A stretch of DNA of 36,873 nucleotides from Deltaproteobacteria bacterium (GTDB taxonomy: Bacteria; Myxococcota; Myxococcia; Myxococcales; 40CM-4-68-19). Positions 2,457 through 31,679 of this stretch are shown piece after piece (the first letter of the stretch is position 1; each line of letters begins with the position of its first letter). Position numbers and translations under genes: made by a program. The stretch is taken from contig VBKI01000073.1 in assembly GCA_005879535.1 (NCBI GenBank), positions 1-36,873 of the forward strand. The letters run 5' to 3'. The notes beneath the pieces are model-generated. The model saw only the letters and a list, made by a program, of their open reading frames with translations, did not search any database and had not been told where the DNA came from.

Positions 2457-2525
2457 GAGCGGATCTGGTCCGGGCCTCTGCGCTCGATTCGGCGTGCATC
2501 GTCGAGGTCTTGCGACGTCTGCGGA

Positions 2526-3506
2526 TCAGGCGCCGGGGACCACCACTACCTTCCCCTTCACCTTGCGCTGCAGTAGCCGCACCATCGCCCCGGGCGCTTC
2601 TTCGAGAGAGACGCGTTCGCTGATTGCGGGCTTGATCCTGCCCTGAGCGAACCACGCCGCCAGCTGCTCGACGTTGCGGCGTTGCCCTTCTGGATCGTGC
2701 TGCGTCCAGTCACCCCAGTACACGCCCACCAGCGATCGTTCCTTGAGTAGCGCCAGGTTCAGCTTGACCTGCGGGATGACGCCGGAGGCGAACCCGATGA
2801 CCAGCAGCCGCCCGCGCCACGCCGTCGCGCGCAGCGCCGCTTCGGTGTGCGCGCCGCCCACCGGATCGTAGACCACGTCGGCGCCCTTCCCTCGCGTCAG
2901 GTCGAGGATGCGCTGGCGGAGGTCGGATTTCTCGTAGTCGATGCCGTCGTCGGCGCCGAGTTCCTTGCAGAACGCGAGCTTCTCCTCGCTGGACGCGGCC
3001 GCGATGACCTTCGCTCCCATCGCCTTGCCCACCTCGATGGCCGAGGTGCCCACCCCGCCCGCCGCCCCCAGGACCACCAGCGTCTCGCCGGGCTGGAGAT
3101 GGCCGCAGTCCTTGAGCGCGTGCAGCGACGTGCAGTAGGTGAGCACGAATGCCGATCCGGTCTCGAAGTCCATCCCCGCCGGCAGCGGAGAGAGCCGGTC
3201 GGCAGCAACAACGCATTCCTGCGCGAATCCACCGCGGCCCGGTGAAGCGACGACGCGGTCGCCGCTCTTCACGCCGCGGACGCCGGCTCCGACGTCCTTC
3301 ACGATCCCTGCCAGCTCCATCCCGGGTGAGAAGGGCAACGGCGGCTTCACCTGGTAGAGGCCCTGCACCAGCAGCGCGTCAGGGAAGTTTAGGGAACTCG
3401 CCTTCACCTCGACGACCACCTCGGTCGGACCAGGCCGGGGCGAAGGGACTTCTTCCACCTTCAGCCGCTCGATGGGTCCATATTCGCGGCAGAGAAGAGC
3501 TTTCAC
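2526..3506 (-). CDS. NADPH:quinone oxidoreductase, zinc-free MDR family
   Basis: This 326-residue medium-chain dehydrogenase/reductase has an N-terminal GroES-like domain (NFPDALLVQGLYQ, PFSPGMELAGIV) and a Rossmann domain with AAGGVGTSAIEVGKAMGAKVIAA for NADPH. The catalytic-zinc Cys/His ligands of alcohol dehydrogenases are absent, so a quinone oxidoreductase or enoyl reductase role is expected. It begins with GTG three bases after the stop of the upstream acyl-CoA ligase, whose last codons carry a purine-rich AAGGAAAG ribosome site. The two form an operon, which suggests this enzyme reduces a double bond or quinone in the same carboxylic-acid pathway. The exact substrate cannot be read. 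Confidence 0.87.
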   Translation of the reverse strand: MKALLCREYGPIERLKVEEVPSPRPGPTEVVVEVKASSLNFPDALLVQGLYQVKPPLPFSPGMELAGIVKDVGAGVRGVKSGDRVVASPGRGGFAQECVVAADRLSPLPAGMDFETGSAFVLTYCTSLHALKDCGHLQPGETLVVLGAAGGVGTSAIEVGKAMGAKVIAAASSEEKLAFCKELGADDGIDYEKSDLRQRILDLTRGKGADVVYDPVGGAHTEAALRATAWRGRLLVIGFASGVIPQVKLNLALLKERSLVGVYWGDWTQHDPEGQRRNVEQLAAWFAQGRIKPAISERVSLEEAPGAMVRLLQRKVKGKVVVVPGA

Positions 3507-3509
3507 GGC

Positions 3510-5171
3510 TCACTTTCCTTTCAGGAGCGCCGTCTGCTCGCGCAGGACGCGCTTGAGCACCTTGCCAGTAGCGGTCTTGGGCAATGCATCGATGAAGCGG
3601 ACCTGCCGCGGCGCCTTGTACACGGACATGTTCGTCCGGCACCAATCGACAATCTGGTCCTCGCTGACGTTGCCCTTGGCGTCGGGCTTCAGCACCACGA
3701 ACGCCAGCGGATCCTCGCCGCGGTAGGGATCGGCGACGCCGACGACGGCCACCTCGGCGACGGCCGGGTGACGGTACATGATCGCCTCCACTTCCGCGGG
3801 AAAGACGCTGAAGCCGGATACCTTCAGCATGTCCTTCTTGCGCTCCTCGATGGAGAAGTAGCCCTCCTCGTCGACGCGGCCAATATCGCCGGTGAGAAAC
3901 CAACCGTCGTGGAATGCCCGGCGAGTCGCTTCGGGGTTCCGCCAATAGCCTTTCATTACCTGGGGGCCACGCACGGCGATCTCCCCGGACTTGCCGATTT
4001 CCAGCTCCGTCCCAGGATCGTTCACGTCCACCACCCGCACCTCCGTCAGCGGCAGCGGGACGCCGACCGTGCCGTACTTGGGCCGGTGCGGCGGGTTGAT
4101 GTGCGTCGGGGCAGTCGTTTCCGACAGCCCGTAACCCTCGATCAGCTTGTGTCCGGTGATCTCCTCCCAACGCCGCGCGATCGCGGGCGGCACCGGCGCT
4201 CCGCCCGAGTAGCATTGACGGAGCGAGGAGAGATCGAACTCTTTCGTCTTCGGGAAATTCACCACCGCCACGTTCACGGTGGTGATGAAGGTGGTCCGTG
4301 TGCAGCGATACGTCTCGATGGCCCGGAGCACGGTGACGAGATCGAAGCGGCCGATGGCCACGAGCGTCGCGCCCATGTACGCCATCATGTTCATCTGGCA
4401 TTCCATCCCGGTGATGTGGAACCAGGGCAGGACGCCGAGCCCCACGTCGTCGTCGCCCGAGCCGATGTAGACGTGCTGCAGCTCACAATTCGAAACCAGG
4501 TTGCCGTGCGTGATCTCCGCTGCCTTGGCGGTGCCGGTCGTGCCGGAGGTGTACTGCAGCAAAGCGGTGTCGGAGAGCGACCGCGGGACCTGCGTCTTCA
4601 GCTCGGGAGCGGAGTGCAGGACGTCCAGCAGCGGCTCGGTGCCGGGCCGCGGCCCGCCGTTGCTCTCCAGGAACGGGGGCGGCGGCGGTAGCGTCGGGGT
4701 CTCGGGCAGGAAGTCGCGGTACTCGGTCAGCACCACGGTGTCGAGCTTCGTCTGCGTCCGGATCGGCTCGACCACCAAGTACGCTTCATTCGTGGTGACG
4801 AGGACACGCGCCCCGGAGTCATCGAATTCGTGGAGCAGCTCGACCGCCTTGTGCATCGGATTCAGGCACACCGCGACGCCGCCGGCGCGCAGCGTGCCGT
4901 AGTAGGCGATGGCGAACTGCGGCGAGTTCTCCAGGAAGATGGCGACGCGGTCGCCGGGTGAAAGCCCGCGAGCCTGCAGGAAGCCCGCGAAGCGGCCCAC
5001 CGCCGAGTCGAGCTCGGCGAAGCTGACGGCGCGCCCGTAAAAGTGGATCGCCGGACGATCGGGCACGCGCTTCGCCTGGCGCGCGAGGATGGCCGTCAAC
5101 GGCTCTTCGGGCAGGCGGATCGACGCCTCGTGCACGGTCGCCGGCCAGTGCTTCTTCCAGATGGGCTCCAC
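3510..5171 (-). CDS. Acyl-CoA ligase (AMP-binding), fatty or aromatic acid
   Basis: This 553-residue member of the ANL superfamily activates a carboxylate to its CoA thioester through an acyl-adenylate. Motifs in order: the P-loop YTSGTTGTAKAAEITHGN (the usual PKG triad reads AKA), GYGLSETT, TGDIGRVDEEGYF, the hinge region KKDMLKVSGFSVFPAEVE, and the A10 motif TATGKVLKR with the catalytic Lys near the C-terminus. The GTG start has a strong GGGAGG site. It is the first gene of a two-gene leftward operon with the quinone oxidoreductase and is divergent from a second ligase. Long-chain fatty acid or aryl acid are both possible substrates. Confidence 0.9.
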   Translation of the reverse strand: MEPIWKKHWPATVHEASIRLPEEPLTAILARQAKRVPDRPAIHFYGRAVSFAELDSAVGRFAGFLQARGLSPGDRVAIFLENSPQFAIAYYGTLRAGGVAVCLNPMHKAVELLHEFDDSGARVLVTTNEAYLVVEPIRTQTKLDTVVLTEYRDFLPETPTLPPPPPFLESNGGPRPGTEPLLDVLHSAPELKTQVPRSLSDTALLQYTSGTTGTAKAAEITHGNLVSNCELQHVYIGSGDDDVGLGVLPWFHITGMECQMNMMAYMGATLVAIGRFDLVTVLRAIETYRCTRTTFITTVNVAVVNFPKTKEFDLSSLRQCYSGGAPVPPAIARRWEEITGHKLIEGYGLSETTAPTHINPPHRPKYGTVGVPLPLTEVRVVDVNDPGTELEIGKSGEIAVRGPQVMKGYWRNPEATRRAFHDGWFLTGDIGRVDEEGYFSIEERKKDMLKVSGFSVFPAEVEAIMYRHPAVAEVAVVGVADPYRGEDPLAFVVLKPDAKGNVSEDQIVDWCRTNMSVYKAPRQVRFIDALPKTATGKVLKRVLREQTALLKGK

Positions 5172-5267
5172 GGTTTCCTCCCGCGGCAGACGGGCGCGTC
5201 TCCATTACACCGGCCGGCGCCGCGCCGACAGGGTGACGGACGCAAGCTTTTCTGGTTTCCTCCCGCC

Positions 5268-6977
5268 ATGGACCCCCTGCAGCTCTACCTCTCGAGGCCG
5301 TGGGTGAAGTTCTACCAGCCCGGAGTACCGTCGTCCGTCGAGTTCCAGGCGCGCCCGGTGTTCCAGCTCTTCGACGAGGCGGCAGCCCGGTGGCCGGGAC
5401 GCGATGCGCTGGTTTTCTACGGCCGCGGCATCACCTATCGCGAGCTCAGCGATGCCATCGACAGGCTCTCCTGCGCTCTGGCGGAGCTCGGTGTCCGAAA
5501 GGGCCACCGGGTCGCCATCTATCTCGTCAACAGCCCGCAGTTCGTGATCGCGTACTTCGCCGCCCTCAAGTGCGGCGCCGCCGTCACCAGCATCAGCCCG
5601 CTCTATACGAGCCACGAGGTCCGCTACCAGCTCGAGGACAGCGGCGCGCGCGTGGTGGTCTGCCAGGACCTGCTCTACGAGAAGGTGGCAAAGTGCGGCG
5701 CGCCGCTCGACGCGGTCGTGGTCACCAGCGTGGGCGAGTTCCTTCCGCCGCTGAAGCGGCTGCTCGGCAAGACCGCGCTCGCGCGGCTGTTCCCCGAGGT
5801 CAATCTCGGCGCACCCCGGATCCGGCCCGCGGCAAACCTGCACTGGCTCCAGGATCTGCTGAAGAAGTACCCGCCGCGTCCGCCACAAGTCAGCATCGAC
5901 GCGAACGCCGACCTCGCCGCCCTGCCGTACACAGGCGGCACCACCGGCCATCCGAAGGGCGTCATGCTCACCCACGCCAACATGGTCGCGGCGCAGGCGC
6001 TGGCGAAAGCGACGTTCCCGGCGTTTGTCTCAGGCAAGGAAGTGGTGGTCGCGTTCCTGCCCTTCTTCCACATCTACGGGCAGATCGTGATCATGCTCAA
6101 CGGCCTCGCCCAGGGACACTTGCTCGTCCTCTTCACCTGTCCGGACACCGAGGCGATCCTCTCCGCCATGGAGCGTTACCAGGCCACGGTGTTCTTCGGC
6201 GTGCCCACGCTCTTCGAGTACCTCAAGGACCACAAGGACACCGACAAGGTGAACTGGAGGCGGCTCAAGCTGGTCCTCTCCGGCGCCGACACCCTGCACG
6301 AGACCACCACCAAGGGGTGGGCGCGGCGCACCGGCTCCAGCATCACCGAGGGGTATGGGCTCTCCGAGACCTGCGCCATGAGCCACGTCAATCCCGTGCA
6401 GCGCCCCAAGGCCGGCTCGTTCGGCTGCCCCGTACCGGACGTGCTGGCGGCGGTGATCGAGCCGGAATCGCTCGCCTTCGTCCCGCCCGGCGAGATCGGT
6501 GAGCTCGTGCTGTCGGGACCGAGCGTGATGGCGGGCTACTGGCGGCGCCCGGAGGAGACCGCGCGCGCATTCCTCGAGCGGGATGGCCGGCGCTGGCTGA
6601 GGACCGGCGACATCGTCCGCATGGACGACGAGGGCTATTTCCACTTCTACGACCGCTCGAAGGACCTGATCAAATGCAAGGGGTACTCGGTCTTCGCCAA
6701 GGACGTGGAGGAGGTCCTTTACGCGCATCCCCACGTGAAAGCGGCCGGAGTGATCGGAGTTCCCGATCCGGCTTTCGGACACCGGATCAAGGCCATCGTG
6801 GTGCTGCAGGCCGACGCGCGCGGAAAGGTCGACGAGGACGAGATCAAGGCGTACTGCCGCGAGCGTCTCGCCGAATACAAGGTGCCTCAGACGATCGAGT
6901 TCCGCGGCGAGCTGCCGCGCACCGACGTGGGGAAGGTCTCGCGCCGCGAGCTGCGCGACGACGGCCCGGCGGCCTGA
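5268..6977 (+). CDS. Acyl-CoA ligase (AMP-binding), second copy
   Basis: This 569-residue ANL-superfamily ligase starts at the ATG at 5268 (MDPLQLYLSRPWVKFY, a typical family N-terminus). The reading frame stays open far upstream, but that part is antisense to the other ligase. Motifs: YTGGTTGHPKGVMLTHAN, GYGLSETCAMSH, RTGDIVRMDDEGYF, KDLIKCKGYSVFAKDVEEV and a C-terminal DVGKVSRREL with the catalytic Lys. It heads a rightward operon with livG and livF; livG starts on the base after its stop. That linkage implies it activates the acid imported by the Liv-type transporter. No strong Shine-Dalgarno precedes its ATG. Confidence 0.91.
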   Translation: MDPLQLYLSRPWVKFYQPGVPSSVEFQARPVFQLFDEAAARWPGRDALVFYGRGITYRELSDAIDRLSCALAELGVRKGHRVAIYLVNSPQFVIAYFAALKCGAAVTSISPLYTSHEVRYQLEDSGARVVVCQDLLYEKVAKCGAPLDAVVVTSVGEFLPPLKRLLGKTALARLFPEVNLGAPRIRPAANLHWLQDLLKKYPPRPPQVSIDANADLAALPYTGGTTGHPKGVMLTHANMVAAQALAKATFPAFVSGKEVVVAFLPFFHIYGQIVIMLNGLAQGHLLVLFTCPDTEAILSAMERYQATVFFGVPTLFEYLKDHKDTDKVNWRRLKLVLSGADTLHETTTKGWARRTGSSITEGYGLSETCAMSHVNPVQRPKAGSFGCPVPDVLAAVIEPESLAFVPPGEIGELVLSGPSVMAGYWRRPEETARAFLERDGRRWLRTGDIVRMDDEGYFHFYDRSKDLIKCKGYSVFAKDVEEVLYAHPHVKAAGVIGVPDPAFGHRIKAIVVLQADARGKVDEDEIKAYCRERLAEYKVPQTIEFRGELPRTDVGKVSRRELRDDGPAA

Positions 6978-7751
6978 ATGGCGGAGCCGTTCTTCCGCGT
7001 AGAGCGCCTCACCCGTCGCTTCGGCGGGCTGCTCGCCGTCAACGACGTCGGCTTCGAGCTGCGCCGGGACCAGATCGTGGGGCTCATCGGCCCGAACGGC
7101 GCCGGCAAGACCACTCTCCTGAGGCTCATCACGCGCGTCCTGCGCGCGGACAGCGGAAAAGTGATCTTCAACGGCGAGGACATCAGCTCGCTGCGCGTGT
7201 GGGACGTCGTGAACCGCGGTATCGCTTGCACCTTCCAGAACACGAGGCCGTTCCGCCACCTGCCCATCGTCGCCAACGTGATGGTCCCCCTGCTCGCGCC
7301 GAGGGCGCATGCCCGTGGCGACTGGGTGCGGAAGATCGATGCGAAGGCGATGGACGCCCTGGAGTTCGTCGGAATCGCCGACCAGGCGCTCGAGCCGGCC
7401 TCGGCGCTCTCGCAGGGCGACCTGAAGCGGCTGGAGGTGGCGCGCGCCATCGCCACCGAACCGGAGCTGCTGCTGCTCGACGAGCCTCTCGGCGGCCTCA
7501 ATCCCGCGGAATCGGAGCTGCTCGCGCGCTCGATCAAACGGCTGCACAAAGGCGGCCGCTTCGGACGGTTGCATTCAGAAGGGCCCGCCGTGGTGATGAT
7601 CGAGCACAAGCTGAAAGAGCTGATGTCCATCGCCGACCGGGTGATCGTGATGGACCACGGCGAGGTGCTGGCCGACGCCGCGCCGGCGGAGATCGTGAAG
7701 AACCCGAAGGTGGTGGAAGCGTACCTGGGGTCCGCGCATGCCGCTCCTTGA
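6978..7751 (+). CDS. livG: Branched-chain amino-acid-type ABC transporter ATPase (LivG-like)
   Basis: This 257-residue ATPase belongs to the HAAT (LivG) family. It has Walker A GPNGAGKTT, a signature ALSQGDLKRLEVARAI, Walker B LLLLDEPLGGLNPAE and an H-loop VVMIEHKL. The signature reads LSQGD rather than LSGGQ, as is common for LivG. Its ATG directly follows the TGA of the acyl-CoA ligase, and its 3' end overlaps livF by 14 bases, so translation is probably coupled. It should energise the LivH/LivM permease encoded on the opposite strand. Given the ligase neighbours, a carboxylic acid is as likely a substrate as an amino acid. Confidence 0.93.
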   Translation: MAEPFFRVERLTRRFGGLLAVNDVGFELRRDQIVGLIGPNGAGKTTLLRLITRVLRADSGKVIFNGEDISSLRVWDVVNRGIACTFQNTRPFRHLPIVANVMVPLLAPRAHARGDWVRKIDAKAMDALEFVGIADQALEPASALSQGDLKRLEVARAIATEPELLLLDEPLGGLNPAESELLARSIKRLHKGGRFGRLHSEGPAVVMIEHKLKELMSIADRVIVMDHGEVLADAAPAEIVKNPKVVEAYLGSAHAAP

Positions 7752-8487
7752 GGTGAAAGACCTCGCCGTCCGCTACGACAAGGCGGTGATCCTCAACGGG
7801 GTGTCGCTGCGCGTGGACGAGGGCGAGCTCGTGGGCCTCGTCGGACCGAACGGCGCCGGCAAGTCCACGCTGCTGCGCGCCATCTCCGGGCTGGTCCGCT
7901 TCGAGGAGCGGATGAAGCGCGGCGCAGACGGCGACATCGTTCTCGAGGGAGAGGTGCGGCTCGCGGGAGAGCGCATCGAGGGCCTGCCGGCGCATGAGAT
8001 CCGCAAGCGCGGCCTGGTCCACTGCCCCGAGCGGCGGCGGCCGTTCCGCGAGCTGACGGTGGAGGAGAACCTGCTCGCAGGCGCGTACCTGTCGCAAAGC
8101 CCGGCGGGGACGCGGCGCAGCCTCGATCGAGCGTATGCGCTGTTTCCCAGGCTCGCGGAGCGCAAGAGGCAGCTGGCGGGGAAGCTCTCGGGCGGCGAGC
8201 AGCAGATGCTCGCGACGGCGCGCGCTCTGATGTACGAGGCGAAGCTGCTGGCGATCGACGAGCCATCGCTCGGCCTCGCGCCCCGCGTCCGCGAGGAACT
8301 GTTCGCCGCCATCGGGAAGATCCACGCGGAGGGCACCCCGGTCCTGCTCGTGGAGCAGGAGGTGGCGCAGGTCTTCCGCATGGCGAAGCGCAACTACGTG
8401 CTCTCGCAGGGGCGCATCATCGCCGAGGGCACCGCGGCGGAGATGATGGCGAACGAGACGCTGCGCGCCGGCTACCTGGGGCTCTGA
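7738..8487 (+). CDS. livF: Branched-chain amino-acid-type ABC transporter ATPase (LivF-like)
   Basis: This 249-residue second ATPase of a Liv-type importer has Walker A GPNGAGKST, signature LSGGEQQMLATARALM, Walker B LLAIDEPSLGLAP and VLLVEQEV at the H-loop. CPERRRPFRELTVEENL is the typical LivF Q-loop region. It has a short insertion (residues about 56-66) between Walker A and the EVRLAG strand. It overlaps livG at its start. Its stop lies only 9 bases from the stop of livM, which is transcribed toward it, so the two transporter transcripts converge here without room for a separate terminator. Confidence 0.93.
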   Translation: MPLLEVKDLAVRYDKAVILNGVSLRVDEGELVGLVGPNGAGKSTLLRAISGLVRFEERMKRGADGDIVLEGEVRLAGERIEGLPAHEIRKRGLVHCPERRRPFRELTVEENLLAGAYLSQSPAGTRRSLDRAYALFPRLAERKRQLAGKLSGGEQQMLATARALMYEAKLLAIDEPSLGLAPRVREELFAAIGKIHAEGTPVLLVEQEVAQVFRMAKRNYVLSQGRIIAEGTAAEMMANETLRAGYLGL

Positions 8488-8496
8488 GCGGGGGCC

Positions 8497-9552
8497 CTAC
8501 GCCGTGTGAAGGGAAGCCGTGCAGACGCGGCAGACGTCGCGCCAGGCGGGGTTCTGCTGCTTGCAGCGCGGGCACTTCGTCTCGATCCGGTCGCGGATCC
8601 AGGGGGTGAGCCCCCGCGGCATGAAGAGCAACACCAGGAGCACCACCACGGCGAAGATGAGCAGCCGCAGCTCGCCGAAGGCGCTGAAGCTGCCCAGCCA
8701 CTCGGTCAGCGGGTAGAGCACGAACACCGCGGTGACCGGGCCGTAGATGGTGGCGAGCCCTCCGAACACCCCCCAGATCACCACCTGGAAGGAGAGCGCG
8801 GTTTCGAGCGTCGAGGGGCCGGCGCCGCGCATGAAATGGGCGTAGAGCGCGCCGGTGATTCCGGCCGCGGCCGCCGAGATGCCGAACACGGCGAGCTTGT
8901 ACTGCGTCGTGTCGATCCCGGAGGCTCGCGCCGCCAGCTCGTCGTCGCGGATGGCGTGCAGGATCAGCCCCATCCTGGAGTCGGCCAAGGCCCAGATGCC
9001 GAACACGACCCCAAGCATGGCAACGGCGGCGACGTAGTAGTTGCCGACGCGCGAAGTGGCGAGCGGCTGCAGGCCCGTGATCCCCAGCTCGCCGCCCGAG
9101 AAGTCAGGAAAGGCGAAGAGCACCCCGATGAGGATGAGTGGAAACGCGAGGGTCGCGAGCGACAGGTACGAGCCGCGCAACCGCAGGCAGAGATAGCCCA
9201 CGCAAAGTCCGATCGCGGTAGCGATGAGCGCTCCGGTGCCGACAGCGACGACGGGCGAGAAGCCAAGGCGCAGCGAGAGCAACGCGCTCGAGTAGGCTCC
9301 CGCGCCGAAGAAGAGCGCGTGGCCGAAGTTGACCTGCCCGGCATATCCCGCCAGGAGATCCCAGCTGGCGGCGAAGGCGGCGAAGATGCAGGTCATCGCA
9401 GCCACCCGCAGCACGTACGGATCCGGGAGCACGAGCGGGAGCACGACGACCGCAACCACCCAGATCGCGGCGAGCGTGCGCGAGGGCAACACCAGGACCT
9501 CGCCGCGCAGCTGCGCCCAGGCGCGGCGGACGAGGAAGGTCGGCGCCGTCAG
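8497..9552 (-). CDS. livM: Liv-type permease (LivM-like) with C-terminal zinc-ribbon-like tail
   Basis: A permease of about 351 residues with many hydrophobic helices and the family motif SWDLLAGYAGQVNFGHALFFG. The permease domain ends around FMPRGLTPWIRD. It is followed by an unusual tail with Cys 327, 330, 341 and 344 (CPRC-x10-CRVC), the spacing of a small zinc ribbon. The start is uncertain: a CTG at 9552 overlaps the livH stop (CTGA) behind GAGGAGGAG, which is the best ribosome site, and no ATG, GTG or TTG lies in the next 15 codons. A start further upstream would overlap livH heavily and encode non-permease sequence. Confidence 0.88.
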   Translation of the reverse strand: MTAPTFLVRRAWAQLRGEVLVLPSRTLAAIWVVAVVVLPLVLPDPYVLRVAAMTCIFAAFAASWDLLAGYAGQVNFGHALFFGAGAYSSALLSLRLGFSPVVAVGTGALIATAIGLCVGYLCLRLRGSYLSLATLAFPLILIGVLFAFPDFSGGELGITGLQPLATSRVGNYYVAAVAMLGVVFGIWALADSRMGLILHAIRDDELAARASGIDTTQYKLAVFGISAAAAGITGALYAHFMRGAGPSTLETALSFQVVIWGVFGGLATIYGPVTAVFVLYPLTEWLGSFSAFGELRLLIFAVVVLLVLLFMPRGLTPWIRDRIETKCPRCKQQNPAWRDVCRVCTASLHTA

Positions 9553-22508: not shown

Positions 22509-25232
22509 TCAGGTGCGGGGGCCGAGCCAGACCGCGGTCCCGTCCGCCCCCTCCGGCGCGCGCTCCCAGCCCGTCAGCCGCTGGCCGAGGAGCGCAACGA
22601 CCAGCTCCGAGGCGCCTTCGAGCGCGAACGCGGCGCGGTCGGGGGCGATCTCGCGCGCCGCCGCGAGCAGATCGGCGGCCCTGCGCGATGCTGGCGACGC
22701 GACCGCCGACCTCCCGTTGACGTCCTCGAAGAGCACCCCTTCCCCGGCGCAGACGGCGGCGCGGACGATGACGCCCTGATCGAGCGAGCTGCGGGCGATC
22801 TCCTGCGCGAAACGGGCGGCGCTGAAGAGCGCCGCTTCGACGCCGGTGCGCGCAGGCAAGCGCTCGAAGGCGACGACCGACAGCACCGGACCGACCTGGG
22901 TGGCTGCGGAACCATAGGCTTCGAGGAACGCGCGCGCGCGATGGGCGACGAATCCGAGCAGCTCGTGCGCTTCGCGGGCTGTGAGCTGGGATCCCGGGTC
23001 GGCCACTTCGCCGGCGTAGAAGACGGCGCGGACCGGCGCCCGCGGCGGTAGGGAAAGTCCCGCGTCGCGCATCGCGCGCTCGAGCAGCGGCCGCGGAGGA
23101 TCGAGCGAAAACCAGGTCCGGAGCAGGCGAAGCTCCGCGGCGGTGCGCGGCCCGCGGGCGGCGATCTCGCCCAGGCGCTCGGCTTCGCCGCTCGCCGGCG
23201 CCTCCGGGGCTTGCTCGGGCCGCACCGCACGAACCGTCCAGAAGGGCAGCATTTCCGGGCCCGCGTCGAGCCTCCGCAGGCTCTCTGCGGTGACGAAGTC
23301 TGCGTCTTGCAGCTCACCCGGTCCGACGAAGCACACCGTTCGGTGTGCTCCATCTTCTGTGGGCCGGGAGAGGACGACGAGCGAGACGCGCAGCGCCTCT
23401 TTCAGGCGGTCGACGATGCGGCGTTCGTCGAGGCCTGCCGCCTCGGGGCGGAGACGCCCATGCGTGCGGCACTCGGCGGCGATCTCCCGGATTTCGTCGG
23501 TGAGCAGGCGGAAGACGTCGAACATGGAGCTGAGGCGTTCGCTTTCCTGTTGCGCGACCCGCACCACGGCGCGCAGCCGATTGCGCAGCTCGGGCAGCGA
23601 CTGCGGAACCACCAGCTTTTCGAGCCCCTCGAAGTCGAGGTGCGCGACGTCCTCGGCGCTGAGCGCGCGCAGGCAGCTGCGGATGCTGACCGACGTCGTT
23701 CCCTCCACCAGCCATGCGTTCGGGACGGCGCGCAACTGCGAAGGCAGCAGGACGCGGAGCAGCCGCGCCTTGGCCTCCCACGCGGCGCTGATCGGAGACT
23801 GACCGTTGGGATCCCGACGCTGGCGGGGCGGCCGCTGCTCCTGGTGGCCGCCACGCAGGAGCGAGCAGACGATATGCGAAAGCGGTCCACCGACGGACGT
23901 GGTGAACGCCAGCGCGCCGTCCTCGCGGAAGCCCTGGCGCGATTCCGCCTCGAGCAGGTAGCGGCGGTCGACGCAGAAGAGATGGTGCGCCTTGTTGATC
24001 TGCACCAGGCCGGAGGCGCCCAGAGCGTGACCAAACGTCAAGAGGCCGCCGACGGGGTTCGACCAGCCCTCCGCCATCCGCTCCGTCGAGCGGTCCCAGC
24101 CGAGCCCGAGGGCGAGCAGAAACGACAGCTCGATGCTGGGAAAGGCGTCGTGGACCACGCCGAAGGCGCAGGAGGTGAAGGTCGATACGGGGACTTGGGC
24201 ATCGTCCGCGCAGCCGGCGAGCGCCCCGTACACGGCGGGGGCGAAGAGCAGCGGGGTCTTGCGGTGGAGGAGATCGGGGTTCGTCGACCCATCGCCGAGG
24301 CCGAGCACTTCCGTGAGCGGGGTGGTGCTGAAGCGCGCGCTCTTCGAGGAGGCGACCGCCTCGATCAGAGCGTCGTCGGAGGTGACGATGGTGGCGGCGG
24401 CGCCGCAGCAAGGCACCGCGATGTCGGTCGCGTCGAACCAAGGGGTCCGCGGCGTGTCCCGCTTGAAGGGCTTTCCGGCGTTGATTCCCGCCGGGTAGTT
24501 GGCGCCGACCTGCGCCTTGCGGGCGGCAACGCGCGCGAGAAGCGACTCCAACTCGCCCGGCGGCAGATCGAAGCTGCGCCGCATCACGTCCATGATCAGA
24601 TCGCCGACCGCGAGCATGTCGAGCCCACGGGCCTGGTCGTCCTCTCCCAGCACGGTGCGGATCTGGTATTGCGACGCGTAACCGCCGGGGATGATCTGCC
24701 CGGCGAGCACGAGGATGGTGGCGGGGTGCTCCGCGGTGCGGGCTGCCCGGACTGCCTCCGCGAACGCCTGCGCGCCGCTGTCCGAGGTTCCCACCACGAA
24801 CTGCGCCCGCGCGCGCGCGGAGAGGCCGAGTTGCACCTGCAGCGCCTGCGGGACCAGCCCGATGTTGACGCGCTCGTTGGGATCGAGACCCGGCATCGAG
24901 GTGACCAGCATGTCGGTGATGGAGTCGCAGGTGCGCCGCCAGTCGGCGCCGGTCAGCTCGTGCAGCGTGGTGAGCGCGCGGTGCGCGGCGGACGCGAGGA
25001 GATCGGGAAGCCCGATGGGTTCGCGGATGCCGAACGCCTTCTGCCATTCGTCCGGACGCGTCCGGCCGTCGTCGCTGCGGTTGGGATATCTAAAGAACAG
25101 GTGCGACGCCTCGCCGGGGCGAAGTTCTTGATGCGGCGCGCCGAAGAAGTCGCGACGCCGCCGCTCCGGCTGAAGATCGCGCGGGCTGGCGCTGTATTCG
25201 GCGGCGACGACGAAGACCCTGCGGCGCGTCAT
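22509..25232 (-). CDS. Pseudo-thiolase with C-terminal cyclase-like domain, 907 residues
   Basis: Residues about 1-470 follow the thiolase/SCP2-thiolase fold: ILVLAGQIIPGGYASQYQ, VPCCGAAATIVTSDDA, HDAFPSIELSFLLALGLG and SNPVGGLLTFGHALGASGLVQINKAHHLF. Catalytic residues are altered: the nucleophile region reads GTSDSGAQA (no Cys), HDCF is HDAF, and the last Cys motif is TSVGG; the GH histidine is kept. A middle region (about 500-770) has no recognised family. The end (about 780-890), with VIVRAAVCAGEGVLFEDVNGR followed by SPASRRAADLLAAA, weakly resembles a class III nucleotide cyclase core (G-DxVNxAxRL) without its metal Asp. There is no signal peptide. The ATG at 25232 is preferred over a GTG five codons upstream. 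Function unknown. Confidence 0.72.
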   Translation of the reverse strand: MTRRRVFVVAAEYSASPRDLQPERRRRDFFGAPHQELRPGEASHLFFRYPNRSDDGRTRPDEWQKAFGIREPIGLPDLLASAAHRALTTLHELTGADWRRTCDSITDMLVTSMPGLDPNERVNIGLVPQALQVQLGLSARARAQFVVGTSDSGAQAFAEAVRAARTAEHPATILVLAGQIIPGGYASQYQIRTVLGEDDQARGLDMLAVGDLIMDVMRRSFDLPPGELESLLARVAARKAQVGANYPAGINAGKPFKRDTPRTPWFDATDIAVPCCGAAATIVTSDDALIEAVASSKSARFSTTPLTEVLGLGDGSTNPDLLHRKTPLLFAPAVYGALAGCADDAQVPVSTFTSCAFGVVHDAFPSIELSFLLALGLGWDRSTERMAEGWSNPVGGLLTFGHALGASGLVQINKAHHLFCVDRRYLLEAESRQGFREDGALAFTTSVGGPLSHIVCSLLRGGHQEQRPPRQRRDPNGQSPISAAWEAKARLLRVLLPSQLRAVPNAWLVEGTTSVSIRSCLRALSAEDVAHLDFEGLEKLVVPQSLPELRNRLRAVVRVAQQESERLSSMFDVFRLLTDEIREIAAECRTHGRLRPEAAGLDERRIVDRLKEALRVSLVVLSRPTEDGAHRTVCFVGPGELQDADFVTAESLRRLDAGPEMLPFWTVRAVRPEQAPEAPASGEAERLGEIAARGPRTAAELRLLRTWFSLDPPRPLLERAMRDAGLSLPPRAPVRAVFYAGEVADPGSQLTAREAHELLGFVAHRARAFLEAYGSAATQVGPVLSVVAFERLPARTGVEAALFSAARFAQEIARSSLDQGVIVRAAVCAGEGVLFEDVNGRSAVASPASRRAADLLAAAREIAPDRAAFALEGASELVVALLGQRLTGWERAPEGADGTAVWLGPRT

Positions 25233-25287
25233 ACGCCAATCAAACACGCTGCGGCGTCCGGATGGAAGCGGGCAGTAGGTCCGGAAG

Positions 25288-26339: not shown

Positions 26340-27283
26340 AGGTGGTGCTTCCAGGCATCGCCAGCCTGCTCGCGCGCAACGTCGCCCGACGGCTCCTGGC
26401 CGCCGGGCACGAGGTGATCGGCATCGATCCGCGCGGCTGGCCGGACGCACCGCGCGAAGTCGAGCTGCACCGTGTGGACATCCGCAAGCGCGCGGCGGAG
26501 GACGTCTTCCGGCGGCACCGCCCCGAGGCCGTGATTCACATGGCCACCATCTCCGCCCTGCTCGCCGACCCGGAGGAGCGTTACCGGATCAACCTCGGAG
26601 GTACCCGGGCGGTGTTCGAGCACTGCGCAAATCACGGCGTCCGCCAGGTGATCTTCGTCGGCCGTCACACCTACTACGGCGCCGGGCCCGAGGCGCCGCT
26701 CTACCACACCGAAGCGGAGCCGCCGCAGGAACTGGGCGCCTATCCGGAGCTCGCCGATCTGGTGGCTGCCGATCTCTACGCGGCCAATGCGCTGTGGAGG
26801 ATTCCCGATCTGCACACCGCGGTCTTGCGCGTCTGCTACACCCTCGGACCGTCCGCACACGGGACGCTGGCGAGCTTCCTCAATGCCCGGTTCGTGCCGA
26901 TGGTTCTGGGCTTCGACCCTCTGTTCCAGTTCCTCCACGAGGACGATGCGGCGAACGCGATCGTCACCGCGCTCTCCTCGAAGCTGCGCGGCATCTACAA
27001 CGTGGCCGGACCGCAGCCGCTTCCCCTGAGCTTGATCGCGCACGAGGCCCGGCGCCGGACGGTGCCCCTGCCAGAAGTTGCGCTCGCGTTCCTCCTCGGG
27101 CGCGCCGGCTTGCCCCGCCTCTCGCGCGGCGCACTCGCGCACATCAAGTATCCGATCGTGGTGGACGCGGCCCTGTTCCGGCGCGAAACCGGCTTCCAGC
27201 ACCAATTCGACGAGCTGGCCACGGTCCATTCGTTCGCGGACGCCGTTCCGCCCGGCGGGCGATCGAGGCCGTTGCCAGCCTGA
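26336..27283 (+). CDS. NAD-dependent epimerase/dehydratase (extended SDR)
   Basis: A 315-residue extended SDR. The cofactor motif is degenerate at the start (VVLPGIASLLARNVARRLLAAGHEVIGIDPR instead of GxxGxxG). It has AVIHMATISALLAD, INLGGTRAVFEHC and VIFVGRHTYYG, while the YxxxK pair is not obvious (PELADLVAADLYAAN). FLHEDDAANAIVTAL and YNVAGPQPLPLS are family features of nucleotide-sugar and sterol-type members. It overlaps the acyltransferase by four bases, suggesting lipid or surface-glycan modification; the substrate is unknown. The cysteine-leader promoter begins one base after its stop. Confidence 0.83.
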   Translation: MKVVLPGIASLLARNVARRLLAAGHEVIGIDPRGWPDAPREVELHRVDIRKRAAEDVFRRHRPEAVIHMATISALLADPEERYRINLGGTRAVFEHCANHGVRQVIFVGRHTYYGAGPEAPLYHTEAEPPQELGAYPELADLVAADLYAANALWRIPDLHTAVLRVCYTLGPSAHGTLASFLNARFVPMVLGFDPLFQFLHEDDAANAIVTALSSKLRGIYNVAGPQPLPLSLIAHEARRRTVPLPEVALAFLLGRAGLPRLSRGALAHIKYPIVVDAALFRRETGFQHQFDELATVHSFADAVPPGGRSRPLPA

Positions 27284-27284
27284 C

Positions 27285-27314
27285 TTGACAGGTCGAGGGT
27301 ACCTCCGTTATCGA
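27285..27314 (+). promoter_or_regulatory. Promoter of the siroheme/sulfite operon leader
   Basis: A perfect -35 box, TTGACA (27285-27290), is followed after 18 bases by TATCGA (27309-27314) as a modest -10. Transcription would start near 27321-27324, at or just before the ATG of the Cys-rich leader ORF, predicting a nearly leaderless mRNA. Confidence 0.5.
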
Positions 27315-27323
27315 TCGCGGCCG

Positions 27324-27401
27324 ATGTCGCCTCGAATGCAGAGCAAGTGCGCATGTTGTTGTCGCCCCGGCATGTCGTGCCGGGCGCGCGCACGAGCCTG
27401 A
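27324..27401 (+). CDS. Cysteine-rich leader peptide (25 or 21 residues)
   Basis: A small ORF starts at ATG 27324 or ATG 27336 and ends with TGA at 27401. Its core reads KCACCCRPGMSC: five Cys in 11 residues, with three consecutive TGT codons (27354-27362), which are rare in this GC-rich genome, then an Arg/Ala tail. It sits between a TTGACA promoter and a sulfite-reduction operon. Polycysteine upstream ORFs that attenuate sulfur genes are established in actinobacteria; here the same logic is inferred. There is no Shine-Dalgarno at either start, consistent with leaderless translation. The function would be ribosome stalling when Cys-tRNA is scarce, not the peptide itself. Confidence 0.7.
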   Translation: MSPRMQSKCACCCRPGMSCRARARA

Positions 27402-27482
27402 CGGCGAATCACTCCTCATCGTCCCTCAGCTCCTTGCCCGCCCGGCTCCCCGTCGGCGCCGTGACTTTCCCGCAAGGAGCTG
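27366..27482 (+). promoter_or_regulatory. Leader RNA with mutually exclusive helices hiding the RBS
   Basis: Three helices can be drawn. Helix A, CCCGGCA (27366-27372) with TGCCGGG (27378-27384), starts four bases after the triple TGT codons. Helix C, CAGCTCCTTGC (27427-27437) with GCAAGGAGCTG (27472-27482), is a perfect 11-bp pairing that buries the AAGGAG ribosome site of the first operon gene. Alternative helix B, GCCGGGCG (27379-27386) with CGCCCGGC (27439-27446), is a perfect 8-bp pairing that uses the 3' arm of A and the loop of C, so it competes with both. A ribosome stalled on the Cys codons would mask the 5' arm of A, favour B and free the ribosome site. Confidence 0.6.
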
Positions 27483-27485
27483 TCC

Positions 27486-28046
27486 GTGGATTCGTACCCC
27501 GTCTTTTTGCACCTGCAAGGCCGTTCCGTTTTGCTCGTCGGCGGAGGCAACGTCGCCTCGGCGAAGATCGGCGGACTCATCGCCGCCGGCGCTCGCGTTA
27601 CCGTGGTTGCCCCGGCCATCCTGGACTCGCTCCGGCGGCCTGGAGTCCGCATCGAGCAGCGCGAGTTCGTCCCCGAAGACCTCGAGGGAACGTGGTTCGT
27701 CGTCGCCGCGGCAACCGCCCAAGTCAACCGGGCGGTCGCGGGCGCCGCGGAGATCCACGGGGTGTTCGTCAATGCGGTCGACGACACCGACTCCGCCAGC
27801 GCCTGGCTCGGCGGAGTGTTCCGCAAGGGCGGCGTCACGGTGGCGGTTTCCACCGACGGCCGCGCGCCAGCGCTGGCCGGCTTGCTGCGCGAGGCGCTGC
27901 AGGCGCTGCTGCCGGACGACCTCGAGTCCTGGGCGGAAGTTGCGCAGGAGCTCCGCACCCACTGGAAGGCGGACGGCGTGGCCCTCGCGCGGCGCAGACC
28001 GCTGCTGCTGCGCGCGCTCAACGAGCTGTACCGGGAGGTCGCATGA
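27486..28046 (+). CDS. Precorrin-2 dehydrogenase/sirohydrochlorin ferrochelatase (CysG N-terminal type)
   Basis: A 186-residue protein equal to the N-terminal (CysG-B/Met8p) part of siroheme synthase: YPVFLHLQGRSVLLVGGGNVASAKIGGLIAAGARVTVVAP binds NAD, then TWFVVAAATAQVNRAV and GGVTVAVSTDGRAPALAGLLREAL. It oxidises precorrin-2 to sirohydrochlorin and, in bifunctional members, inserts iron. The start is GTG at 27486 with AAGGAG six bases upstream; that site is paired in the leader hairpin. It overlaps the methyltransferase gene by four bases (ATGA). Together the two genes make siroheme for the downstream reductase. Confidence 0.92.
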   Translation: MDSYPVFLHLQGRSVLLVGGGNVASAKIGGLIAAGARVTVVAPAILDSLRRPGVRIEQREFVPEDLEGTWFVVAAATAQVNRAVAGAAEIHGVFVNAVDDTDSASAWLGGVFRKGGVTVAVSTDGRAPALAGLLREALQALLPDDLESWAEVAQELRTHWKADGVALARRRPLLLRALNELYREVA

Positions 28047-28792
28047 GAGGTTTCGTCTCGCTGGTCGGCGCAGGCCCCGGCGATCCCGACCTGCTCACGT
28101 TGCGCGCCGTCGACCGGCTCCGCGCCGCGGATTTGGTCCTGTACGACGCGCTGGTGGATCGCGCCGCCCTTCGTCACGCTCCGCAGGCGCGTTGGGCATA
28201 TGTCGGCAAGCGCGCCGGACGTCACTCCATCGAGCAAGAGACCATCGAGCGGGTGATGATCCGCCGCGCGCTGCGCGGCGAGCGCATCGTCAGGCTGAAG
28301 AGCGGCGACCCCGTCGTGTTCGGCCGCGGCGGGGAAGAAGCGCTCGCGCTCGCGGAAGCGGGTGTGCCCTGCGAGATCGTACCCGGCGTGTCCTCGGCGG
28401 TGGCTGCGCCGGCGCTGAGCGGCATTCCGGTCACGCACCGCGGGCTGGCCTCGGCCTTCCTCGTCGTCTCCGGACATGCGGAGGAGGCCTATGGACCCGT
28501 GCTCCGCTCTCTGTCGCCTGGCTCCGCGACGCTGGTGATCCTGATGGGGATCGCAACGCGCGCGTCGACCTCCGCGTTGCTCCTTGCCCGCGGATGGCCC
28601 GCCGATACTCCGGCGGCAATCCTGTTTTCGGTTTCGCTCCCCGACGCTTCCGCCTGGCGGGGGACCCTCGCGGGTGTCGCGTCCGCTCCGCGCAGCGGGG
28701 CGCCGGGAATCATCGTGGTCGGCTCCACCGTCGCTCTCGCCGACCGCCTTCACACCGCACACGCAGGAGGTCAACGTGCCGCTGCTCGATAG
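28043..28792 (+). CDS. cobA: Uroporphyrinogen-III C-methyltransferase
   Basis: A 249-residue SAM-dependent methyltransferase making precorrin-2 from uroporphyrinogen III, the first step to siroheme. Family motifs: VSLVGAGPGDPDLLTLRA, LVLYDALVD, YVGKRAGRHSIEQ, VRLKSGDPVVFGRGGEEA, EIVPGVSSAVAAPALSGIPVTHRG and ATLVILMGI. It is the CysG-A/CobA/SumT half of siroheme synthase, encoded separately from the dehydrogenase half. It overlaps that gene by four bases and the reductase gene by 17 bases, so the three are translated as a coupled block. Confidence 0.94.
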   Translation: MRGFVSLVGAGPGDPDLLTLRAVDRLRAADLVLYDALVDRAALRHAPQARWAYVGKRAGRHSIEQETIERVMIRRALRGERIVRLKSGDPVVFGRGGEEALALAEAGVPCEIVPGVSSAVAAPALSGIPVTHRGLASAFLVVSGHAEEAYGPVLRSLSPGSATLVILMGIATRASTSALLLARGWPADTPAAILFSVSLPDASAWRGTLAGVASAPRSGAPGIIVVGSTVALADRLHTAHAGGQRAAAR

Positions 28793-30485
28793 CAAGACGC
28801 TCGGCCCCGCCCGTCTCGGGTTCGCCGACGAGAAGGACCTGGATGCGTTCGTAGCGATGCTCGGCAAGTTCGAGCGCGGTGAGATCTCCGCCGACGCGTG
28901 GAAACAGTTCCGCCTGGTGAACGGCGTCTACAGCCAGCGCCAGGAGGGCGACGCGATGATGGTCCGCGTCAAGATCCCCCAAGGTGTCCTCACGCCGGCG
29001 CAGCTCCGAGCGCTGGCGGACGTCGCCGAGCGGTTGTCCACCGGTCGCGGCCACATCACGACGCGCCAGAATGTCCAATTCCACTTCGTGCACCTCGCGC
29101 AGACCGACGACGCCTTGCGTGTCCTCGCCGAGGCGGGCCTGACCACGCGCGAGGCCTGCGGCAACTCCGTCCGGAACGTCACTGCCTGCCCGTACGCGGG
29201 TGCATCCGGACTGGAGCCGTTCGACACCACGCCCTATGCGGAGGCGGTCACGCGCCACCTGCTGCGCGGCCCGCTCTCGTCGTCGTTGCCGCGGAAGTTC
29301 AAGATCGCCTTCGGCGGGTGCTGCGGATTCGACTGCGTCGGCGCCTCGTTCAACGACATCGGGTTCCTCGCCCGTGAGCGTAACGGGCGGCCCGGATTCC
29401 GCGTCACGGTGGCGGGCGGGCTATCGACGTTGCGGCGCACCGGGATCCTTGCCCACGACTTCGCGCCGGCGGAGGAAGTGGTCGACATCTGCGAAGCGGT
29501 CGTTCGCCTCTTCAACCGGACCGGCGACCGGCAACATCGCCATCGCGCGCGGCTCAAGTTCGTGGTCGAAAAGCTGGGGGCGGAAGAGTTCCTCCGGCAG
29601 TACCACGAGGAGCGCGCGTCGGTGCCGCCGAGGCCGGTCTCGCCCGGCCCGCCCGGTGCGCTCCGTCCGGTCCCAACGCCTTGCCGCCGCTCGCCTCACC
29701 CCGGCTTCGAGGAGTTCGTGCGCACCAACGTGCGTCCGCAGCGCGACCCCGAGCTGGCGGCGGTCGCGATCCGCATCCCGCTCGGAGATCTGACGGCGGC
29801 GCAATTCCACGCCCTGGCGGACATCGCCGAGGAGTTCAGCGCCGAGCGCGAGCTGCGCACGACCGTCGAGCAGAACGCGCTGCTGCGCTTCGTCGGCCGC
29901 TCGCACCTCGCTTCGCTCCATGCGGCGCTCGCCGCCGCCGGACTGGCACGGCCCGGCGCCCTCTCGATCTCCGACGTGGTCAGTTGCCCCGGCGCGTACT
30001 CCTGCCGCCTTGCCGTGACGCAGTCGCGGGGCATGGCCGACGCGCTGACCACGGCGCTGGCCGACCGGGGCGAGAGCTTGCCGATCAAGATCTCCGGCTG
30101 CCCGAACGGCTGCGGACAGCATTACGTCGCCGGGATCGGGCTGCAGGGCTCGGTGCGCAAGGTCGATGGCCGCGCGGTGCCGCAATACCACCTCTACGTC
30201 GGAGGAGAGCTCGGGGCGGAGCAGGCACGTTTCGGCCGGCTCGCGGCGAAGGTTCCCGCCAGGAAGGTGCCGGAGGCGGTGCGGCGTCTGGCGGACCTGG
30301 CAGTGCGCGAGGCGTCTCCCGGCGAGTCGGCGGCGCAGGTCCTCGGCCGCCTCTCGCCGCAGCGGGTTTCGGAGGTGCTCGCGGATCTCGAGCCGCTCGA
30401 TCACCCCGCTCCCGAAGACTTCGTCGATCTTGGCGAACAAAAGGCGTTCGAAGTGCAGACCACGGAAGGCGAATGCGCGGCTTGA
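28776..30485 (+). CDS. Ferredoxin-type siroheme sulfite/nitrite reductase
   Basis: A 569-residue siroheme-4Fe4S reductase performing a six-electron reduction of sulfite (or nitrite). It has two ferrodoxin-like half repeats (VRVKIPQGVLTPAQLRALADVAE and VAIRIPLGDLTAAQFHALADIAE), TGRGHITTRQNVQFHFV, and the cluster ligands CPGAYSC (Cys 404 and 410) and CPNGC (Cys 442 and 446). A Pro-rich linker (about 285-310) joins the halves. The start is GTG at 28776 behind AGGAGG. Sequence alone does not separate sulfite from nitrite reductase. The Cys-rich leader and the YeiH-type partner favour sulfite, while the absence of nitrate genes is only neutral evidence. Confidence 0.92.
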   Translation: MPLLDSKTLGPARLGFADEKDLDAFVAMLGKFERGEISADAWKQFRLVNGVYSQRQEGDAMMVRVKIPQGVLTPAQLRALADVAERLSTGRGHITTRQNVQFHFVHLAQTDDALRVLAEAGLTTREACGNSVRNVTACPYAGASGLEPFDTTPYAEAVTRHLLRGPLSSSLPRKFKIAFGGCCGFDCVGASFNDIGFLARERNGRPGFRVTVAGGLSTLRRTGILAHDFAPAEEVVDICEAVVRLFNRTGDRQHRHRARLKFVVEKLGAEEFLRQYHEERASVPPRPVSPGPPGALRPVPTPCRRSPHPGFEEFVRTNVRPQRDPELAAVAIRIPLGDLTAAQFHALADIAEEFSAERELRTTVEQNALLRFVGRSHLASLHAALAAAGLARPGALSISDVVSCPGAYSCRLAVTQSRGMADALTTALADRGESLPIKISGCPNGCGQHYVAGIGLQGSVRKVDGRAVPQYHLYVGGELGAEQARFGRLAAKVPARKVPEAVRRLADLAVREASPGESAAQVLGRLSPQRVSEVLADLEPLDHPAPEDFVDLGEQKAFEVQTTEGECAA

Positions 30486-30499
30486 ACCCGGAGGTAAAC

Positions 30500-30595
30500 G
30501 TGCTGAAGAGAGTGTCGTTGGACTGGTGGGCGGTGCTCGCGGCCCTGGCCTCGGTGGCCCTGGTGAAGTCGATCAACCTGACGGTGGGGTGGTGA
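30500..30595 (+). CDS. 31-residue single-helix membrane protein
   Basis: A very short gene between the reductase and the YeiH-type transporter. The start is GTG at 30500 with GGAGG five bases upstream. The product reads LDWWAVLAALASVALV then a short polar end (NLTVGW), one transmembrane helix. Its TGA is separated from the transporter ATG by one base. Longer YeiH-family proteins often begin with a similar DWWA-type segment, so this may be a detached N-terminal helix acting as a small subunit of the transporter (inference). Confidence 0.6.
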   Translation: MLKRVSLDWWAVLAALASVALVKSINLTVGW

Positions 30596-30596
30596 G

Positions 30597-31679
30597 ATGA
30601 GCGAGGCCATTGCACTACAGAGGCCGGCGGTCGCGTTGCCCTGGCGCTTGTTGCGGCTCCTTCCCGGCGTGGCGCTGCTCTTTGCCATCGGCTACCTCGG
30701 GAAGGTCACCGAGGCGCTGCTGCGCGATTACGGCAAGGCGCACCATCTGGCGCTGCCGAACATCGAGTACGTGCTCTGGGCGATCGTCTTCGGTCTGATC
30801 ATCGCGAACACCGTCGGTGTGGCGCAGATCTTCCGCCCCGGAGTGGCCACGTACGATTTCTGGCTCAAGGCGGGCATCGTGCTCCTGGGCGCGCGCTTCC
30901 TCCTCGGGGACGTGCTGAAGCTCGGCCGCGTCTCGCTGGCGCTGGTGGCCATCGAGCTGGCCGTCGCGATCGGGGTCATGACGCTGCTCGGCCGTTGGTT
31001 CCGCCTCAAGCCGAAGCTCACCAGCCTGCTCGCGATCGGTTCGTCGATCTGCGGCGTGTCGGCGATCATCGCCGCCAAGGGCGCCATCGAGGCCGACGAC
31101 GACGACGCGACGTTTGCCATCGCGGCCATCCTGGCCCTCGGCGCATTCGGCCTCTTCGCGTACCCGGCCATCGGCCATCTGCTGCACATGAGCGACCATG
31201 CCTTCGGCGTCTGGGCCGGTCTGGCCGTGGACAACACGGCGGAGGCCGCGGCGGCAGGCGCCATCTACTCCGATGTCGCGGGCAAGGTGGCCGTTCTCAC
31301 CAAGTCGACGCGCAACGCGATGATCGGCTTCGTCGTGCTCGCGTACGCAATCTACTGGGCCTCCCGCGGTCAGGCGAAGACGGTGCAGGGCAAGGCTGCG
31401 TTCCTCTGGCAGAAGTTTCCCAAGTTCGTCCTGGGATTCCTCTTCGTCTCGCTGCTGGCGACGCTCCAGGTCTTCGACAAGGTACAGATCGCCTCGCTCG
31501 CGAACCTGTCGCGCTGGGCGTTCCTGCTCACGTTCGCCGGCGTGGGACTGAAGACGGACTTCCGCGAGATCAAGCGGCAGGGCGTCCGGCCCTTCGTCGT
31601 CGGGGCGCTGGCGGAGCTGACGATCACCGCGATTACGCTCGTGCTAGTGCTGGCGGCCGCGGCGATCTTCAGCCTGTGA
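30597..31679 (+). CDS. YeiH-family putative sulfate/sulfite exporter
   Basis: A 360-residue polytopic membrane protein of the YeiH/UPF0324 family with about ten helices. Landmarks: ALPNIEYVLWAIVFGLIIANT, LKAGIVLLGARFLLGDVL, SICGVSAIIAAKGAIEADDDDA, HMSDHAFGVWAGLAVDNTAEAAAAG and LTFAGVGLKTDFREIKRQGVRPFVVGA. Family members are annotated as sulfate or sulfonate-linked exporters with weak experimental support. Position at the end of the siroheme/sulfite operon fits movement of sulfite or another sulfur anion. Its stop lies 3 bases from the convergent FAH gene. Confidence 0.9.
   Translation: MSEAIALQRPAVALPWRLLRLLPGVALLFAIGYLGKVTEALLRDYGKAHHLALPNIEYVLWAIVFGLIIANTVGVAQIFRPGVATYDFWLKAGIVLLGARFLLGDVLKLGRVSLALVAIELAVAIGVMTLLGRWFRLKPKLTSLLAIGSSICGVSAIIAAKGAIEADDDDATFAIAAILALGAFGLFAYPAIGHLLHMSDHAFGVWAGLAVDNTAEAAAAGAIYSDVAGKVAVLTKSTRNAMIGFVVLAYAIYWASRGQAKTVQGKAAFLWQKFPKFVLGFLFVSLLATLQVFDKVQIASLANLSRWAFLLTFAGVGLKTDFREIKRQGVRPFVVGALAELTITAITLVLVLAAAAIFSL

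Follow-up and report, generated by a model that had tools for sequence, protein, structure and literature searches.

The window, here the whole 36,873-nucleotide stretch of DNA that was analysed, carries a short cysteine-rich open reading frame (ORF) ahead of a siroheme and siroheme-reductase operon, and this element is very probably a cysteine-responsive translational attenuator, its output being most likely, to judge from modelled folds, the sequestration of the Shine-Dalgarno (SD) sequence of the first operon gene. Sequence and computation establish the ORF, the retention of its Cys codons among relatives, the alternative pairings downstream of it and the tie between ribosome position and the cost of opening the SD. 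The mechanism proposed here is that the transcript would start a few bases ahead of the ATG at 27324, ribosomes loading at its 5' end without a Shine-Dalgarno. With ample Cys-tRNA, the ribosome would reach the stop at 27401, 27427-27437 would pair with 27472-27482 and the operon would be poorly translated. With scarce Cys-tRNA, it would pause at TGC GCA TGT TGT TGT and cover a first RNA arm (27366-27372), freeing a second (27378 onward); the freed arm would capture 27427-27446, the SD would open more easily, and siroheme synthesis and sulfite reduction would go up. The transcription start, leaderless initiation, pausing at Cys codons and the direction and size of the response are what we infer.

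The leader ORF and its promoter-like sequence

The earlier note on this DNA had described a Cys-rich ORF containing TGT TGT TGT, 84 bases ahead of the operon, and both its coordinates and its sequence proved exact. The ORF encodes MSPRMQSKCACCCRPGMSCRARARA, with Cys codons TGC at 27348, TGT TGT TGT at 27354-27362 and TGC at 27378, and its stop is separated by 84 nt from the GTG start (27486) of the first operon gene. TGT makes up three of the five Cys codons of the leader, against two of 44 across nine window genes. The features concerned are the following.

27285..27314, + strand: promoter-like pair, TTGACA (27285-27290) and TATCGA (27309-27314) with 18 nt between them, read by eye, 9 nt ahead of the leader ATG
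27324..27401, + strand: polycysteine leader ORF, from ATG at 27324 to the stop codon TGA at 27399-27401
27348..27362, + strand: putative sensing codons TGC GCA TGT TGT TGT, assigned from sequence and codon bias

Relatives were gathered by scanning GTDB genome contigs once, the reductase serving as query, which gave 80 related loci. The GTDB family of the window is represented here by 12 genomes, and eight family loci have an intact upstream region, namely six of the window's genus together with L143 and L008; L007 (genome G006), also a congener, is cut by a contig end. In all eight, TTGACA is followed after 17-18 nt by a TA-box ending 6-10 nt ahead of the leader start, TTGACA itself being invariant across six congeners and also present in L008 and L143. 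A consensus promoter scanner left the weak -10 box of the window unscored. As a -10 box usually lies 6-7 nt from the transcription start, a 5' UTR of 0-4 nt is predicted, and the placement of the promoter-like pair suggests a near-leaderless ORF whose transcript would begin just ahead of the ATG at 27324.

Predicted alternative folds at the ribosome-binding site

Four arms, all lying between the sensing codons and the first operon gene, take part in the predicted pairings.

27366..27372, + strand: arm 1 (CCCGGCA) of a hairpin in the 3' half of the leader, pairing with 27378-27384 and predicted to lie under a ribosome paused at the Cys run
27378..27397, + strand: arm 2, pairing with arm 1, or with the spacer once arm 1 is covered
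27427..27437, + strand: anti-Shine-Dalgarno arm CAGCTCCTTGC, forming 11 bp with 27472-27482
27472..27482, + strand: Shine-Dalgarno arm GCAAGGAGCTG of the first operon gene, with the SD AAGGAG at 27474-27479

The anti-SD helix of the window is a perfect 11 bp, a length that no spacer sequence reached in 1000 dinucleotide shuffles, and is retained among relatives with differing letters: 9 bp in L002 and L003 (GCTCCTTGC:GCAAGGAGC), 8 bp in L079 (CTGACTCC:GGAGTCAG) and in L004 (ACTCCGGG:CCCGGAGT), and 7 bp in L007 (TGCTCCT:AGGAGCA). In L005 and L008 the helix is not significant against shuffles. The pairing of arm 2 with the spacer joins GCCGGGCG (27379-27386) to CGCCCGGC (27439-27446), adjoining the anti-SD arm; in L004 the equivalent pairing measures 9 bp and overlaps the anti-SD arm, so that its two folds directly exclude each other.

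The influence of the ribosome was modelled by masking the RNA under it and calculating the energy needed to open the SD, at equilibrium rather than cotranscriptionally. In the window this cost is 12.0 kcal/mol without a ribosome and 15.8 with a ribosome at the stop, and falls to 5.6-6.0 when the A-site is on either of the two final Cys codons in the run and to 4.8 kcal/mol at the next codon. Even in the paused state, the SD is predicted at equilibrium to need about 5 kcal/mol. The minimum lies at the Cys run or one codon past it in the window, L002, L003, L004 and L008. The shift in cost between stop and Cys run was beaten, per 100 spacer shuffles, by none in the window, one in L002 and none in L003, three closely related sequences whose tests are not independent, and by eight in L079, nine in L004, one in L005 and nine in L008. 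By computation, then, the ribosome-binding site is held in a fold that a ribosome at the Cys run would relieve, the modelled relief being small in L079 and L005.

Predicted translational and transcriptional outputs

Outside the window's genus, 31 of 34 Cys-leader loci, mostly from Acidobacteriota, have an intrinsic terminator after the leader and ahead of the gene, and each of the 31 outscores all of 30 shuffles. These terminators favour a reading in which the window element also responds to cysteine but does so by transcription attenuation, through termination by Rho or at a weak intrinsic site, ahead of or inside the first operon gene, SD sequestration being secondary. Untranslated mRNA can invite Rho, which also counts for this reading, as does the terminator of a second leader in the closest relatives described below. 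Rho has moreover been proposed for the mycobacterial leaders (Seliverstov et al. 2005, PMC1262725). Against it, the window and five congeners have no intrinsic terminator in the form of a stem then a T-run, and the pairing that is conserved involves the SD; transcription attenuation is accordingly judged unlikely in the window, and SD sequestration, an output that the earlier note had not mentioned, is preferred.

The second leader just mentioned, RCCCCACAIPWRSGELLE, is found in G001 and G004, 87-90 nt ahead of cysH-cysD. It is preceded by a TTGACT version of the promoter box and followed by CGAAGGCCCGCC...GGCGGGCCTTCGCATTTT, which looks like a terminator whose U-run is weak. Two leaders were thus found in each of these genomes and one in the window genome, where searches with the codon pattern C-x-C-C-C, upstream of PALP-family genes and around the ATP sulfurylase gene gave no further convincing Cys leader. 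From these sequences, the window's genus seems to possess one sensor with two outputs. When the terminator-type leaders were folded at equilibrium, a switch at the Cys run appeared only in L032, L043 and partly in L044, and in most the terminator always won or was not registered; since so few switches are seen in this way, these leaders call for a cotranscriptional model.

Several further Cys leaders were observed in passing. In another family of the order, L145 (reverse, 9048-9152) has the leader AACCCCACCCCRPAG directly before the reductase, followed by an apparent terminator. A Cys-run leader (CCC..RPASPA) is common to two genomes of another family (L147 5493-5612 and L148, reverse, 5760-5879), with TTGACA upstream and, downstream, a gene reading as an OsmC-type protein. 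In L025 (1338-1466) and L029 (1067-1189), Cys-rich leader ORFs stand ahead of a gene reading as homoserine kinase, a possible tie of the cysteine level to genes of the methionine/threonine branch. Separately, SAM riboswitches lie on the strand of the reductase gene, about 300-450 bases past it, in L036, L053, L058, L061, L068 and L075, which represent several Acidobacteriota and one Acidimicrobiia bin.

The operon and the substrate of its reductase

The operon downstream of the leader consists of the following genes.

27486..28046, + strand: cysGN-like gene with a GTG start, siroheme synthase N-terminal-type, precorrin-2 dehydrogenase (TIGR01470, PF13241)
28043..28792, + strand: cobA-like uroporphyrinogen-III C-methyltransferase, CobA/CysG C-terminal-type (TIGR01469, PF00590)
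28770..30485, + strand: ferredoxin-type siroheme reductase, most likely an assimilatory sulfite reductase (NIR_SIR domains and context)
30473..30595, + strand: protein of 40 residues, judged hydrophobic by eye, whose frame overlaps the stop of the reductase, with no family match
30597..31679, + strand: YeiH-type membrane protein (PF03601), also beside the reductase in L002-L005 and L079

The last two genes (30473-31679) follow the reductase throughout the genus, and a role in sulfite or sulfonate traffic would be a guess. Elsewhere in the window, 22509-25247 on the - strand holds an open frame of 912 residues that matched no NCBIfam model.

Assigning the reductase to nitrite or sulfite from family models and solved structures was not decisive, the best matches being named nitrite reductase and including mycobacterial NirA. 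As models and structures do not discriminate, gene context was used instead. The window genome has a separate nitrite operon at L151 (G000, contig C47, 278000-290000, at about 2271-9028) with NirB-, NirD- and formate/nitrite-channel-like genes and its own HemD-like, cysGN and cobA genes, the names being read from translations and supported by a NIR_SIR domain match. No Cys leader was found at this nitrite operon, so that of the two siroheme modules in the genome only the sulfite one has a leader. In a sister genus, the ortholog of the window reductase shares an operon with cysH and ATP sulfurylase, with a Cys leader in front; in L143 and L008 the leader precedes either cysH, or a TauE-like gene (a name read from its translation) and then cysH, ATP sulfurylase, cysGN, cobA and the reductase. 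The separate nitrite operon and the sister-genus context support the earlier proposal that the enzyme acts on sulfite rather than nitrite. Unexpectedly, PF01507 (CysH/CysD) had no match in the window genome, which is rated 100% complete, and is also absent from its congeners G003 and G005; an ATP sulfurylase gene is present in the window genome (C42:9177-9821).

That the operon makes siroheme as well would fit a leader that senses something other than Cys-tRNA, for example by a nascent-chain arrest that depends on sulfide, heme or redox state. No such leader was found at the nitrite operon's siroheme genes, however, and the peptide is unconserved outside its Cys residues, which makes this origin of the response improbable next to a shortage of Cys-tRNA.

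Conservation of the Cys codons

In the closest relatives (L002, L003, L004, L005 and L079) and in many Acidobacteriota, the operon is preceded by a Cys-rich short ORF. Across the 80 loci, short ORFs with at least four Cys per eight codons number 42 on the operon strand versus seven on the other strand. Within the GTDB family such a leader is present at every locus with an intact upstream region, and the Cys codons are retained in all eight, no loss being seen. The cysteine-attenuation reading offered by the earlier note draws support from these retained codons and from the promoter-like pair just upstream. Compared with L002/L003, third codon positions of the leader ORF are 95% identical, as against 55%/53% in cysGN, which places the codons and the RNA under constraint.

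A functional Cys-rich peptide without regulatory action, for instance a binder of metal or siroheme iron, would account for the CxCC(C)R retained across the family, with which metal binding is possible. The ends of the leader peptide nonetheless vary between relatives while the Cys codons persist, the synonymous positions are conserved as much as the remaining ones, and leaders elsewhere have little in common beyond Cys and the terminator that follows, all of which renders such a peptide very improbable and favours a regulatory leader. Cys-dense frames do arise randomly in this genome, where a pattern search for C-x-C-C-C codons gave 21 matches, fewer than its backwards control, but only one of the 21, the window ORF, is a short leader-like ORF ahead of an operon, and with the strand difference, the presence of the leader at all intact family loci and the third-position constraint a chance ORF without function is barely conceivable: the leader ORF is real, beyond chance.

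Relation to known leaders

Rfam 15 covariance models gave no match up to E=1 in 26900-27700, and leaders from 11 related loci gave none at the gathering threshold. In mycobacteria, polycysteine leaderless ORFs govern the translation of cysteine genes (Canestrari et al. 2020, as described in PMC13236596 and PMC9031893). As described there, the mycobacterial ORFs resemble the window element in being short, in having a Cys run and standing where the transcript of a sulfur operon is predicted to begin, and in a structure that masks the ribosome-binding site of the next gene, here by computation. The two differ in phylum and in the first gene, which in the window makes siroheme, and the cysteine response of the window element is inferred. 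Candidate cys leader peptides have also been listed for Mycobacterium, P. acnes and B. longum, without terminators (Seliverstov et al. 2005, PMC1262725). These peptides and the window share Cys codons in a run ahead of a cys operon and the absence of a terminator; no conserved hairpins were seen in that set, which was given a Rho model, whereas the window has a conserved SD-sequestering helix.

The earlier note held such attenuation to be established for actinobacteria, where it is indeed known, yet it is not confined to them: in Rhodobacterales the uORFC-8-2 motif before cysS has been predicted to act as a cysteine attenuator of the terminator type (Brewer et al. 2021, PMC8632094). There, too, tandem Cys codons of the upstream ORF lie within a stem and ribosome-mediated attenuation is predicted, but the motif belongs to a cysteinyl-tRNA synthetase gene in alphaproteobacteria and has an intrinsic terminator, while the window has cysGN downstream and no terminator. 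The classical trp and his attenuators likewise pair alternative RNA folds with a leader peptide in which the regulated amino acid is abundant; unlike them, the window lacks an intrinsic terminator, the terminator form being that of the Acidobacteriota relatives.

A literature search, weak on subscription papers, returned no report of such leaders for Myxococcota or Acidobacteriota. The window element therefore represents a known kind of control, around which the spread and the exchange of outputs are apparently unreported.

Implications for sulfur assimilation

On balance, it is probable that sulfur assimilation in Acidobacteriota and Myxococcota is widely controlled by cysteine sensing through a short Cys-rich, often near-leaderless ORF, with isolated examples in Chloroflexi- and Acidimicrobiia-labelled bins, and that lineages have exchanged the output beneath this sensor: an intrinsic terminator in most, sequestration of the SD in the genus of the window and, apparently, each of the two in one genome. 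If so, these bacteria, which are not Actinobacteria, would possess a cysteine regulon that spans several operons and has no dedicated transcription factor, and a cysteine control known experimentally in mycobacteria would extend, by sequence, to abundant and poorly studied soil phyla. The Cys leader would also serve as a sequence signature pointing a siroheme reductase to sulfite over nitrite, and two outputs under one sensor would offer a natural comparison.
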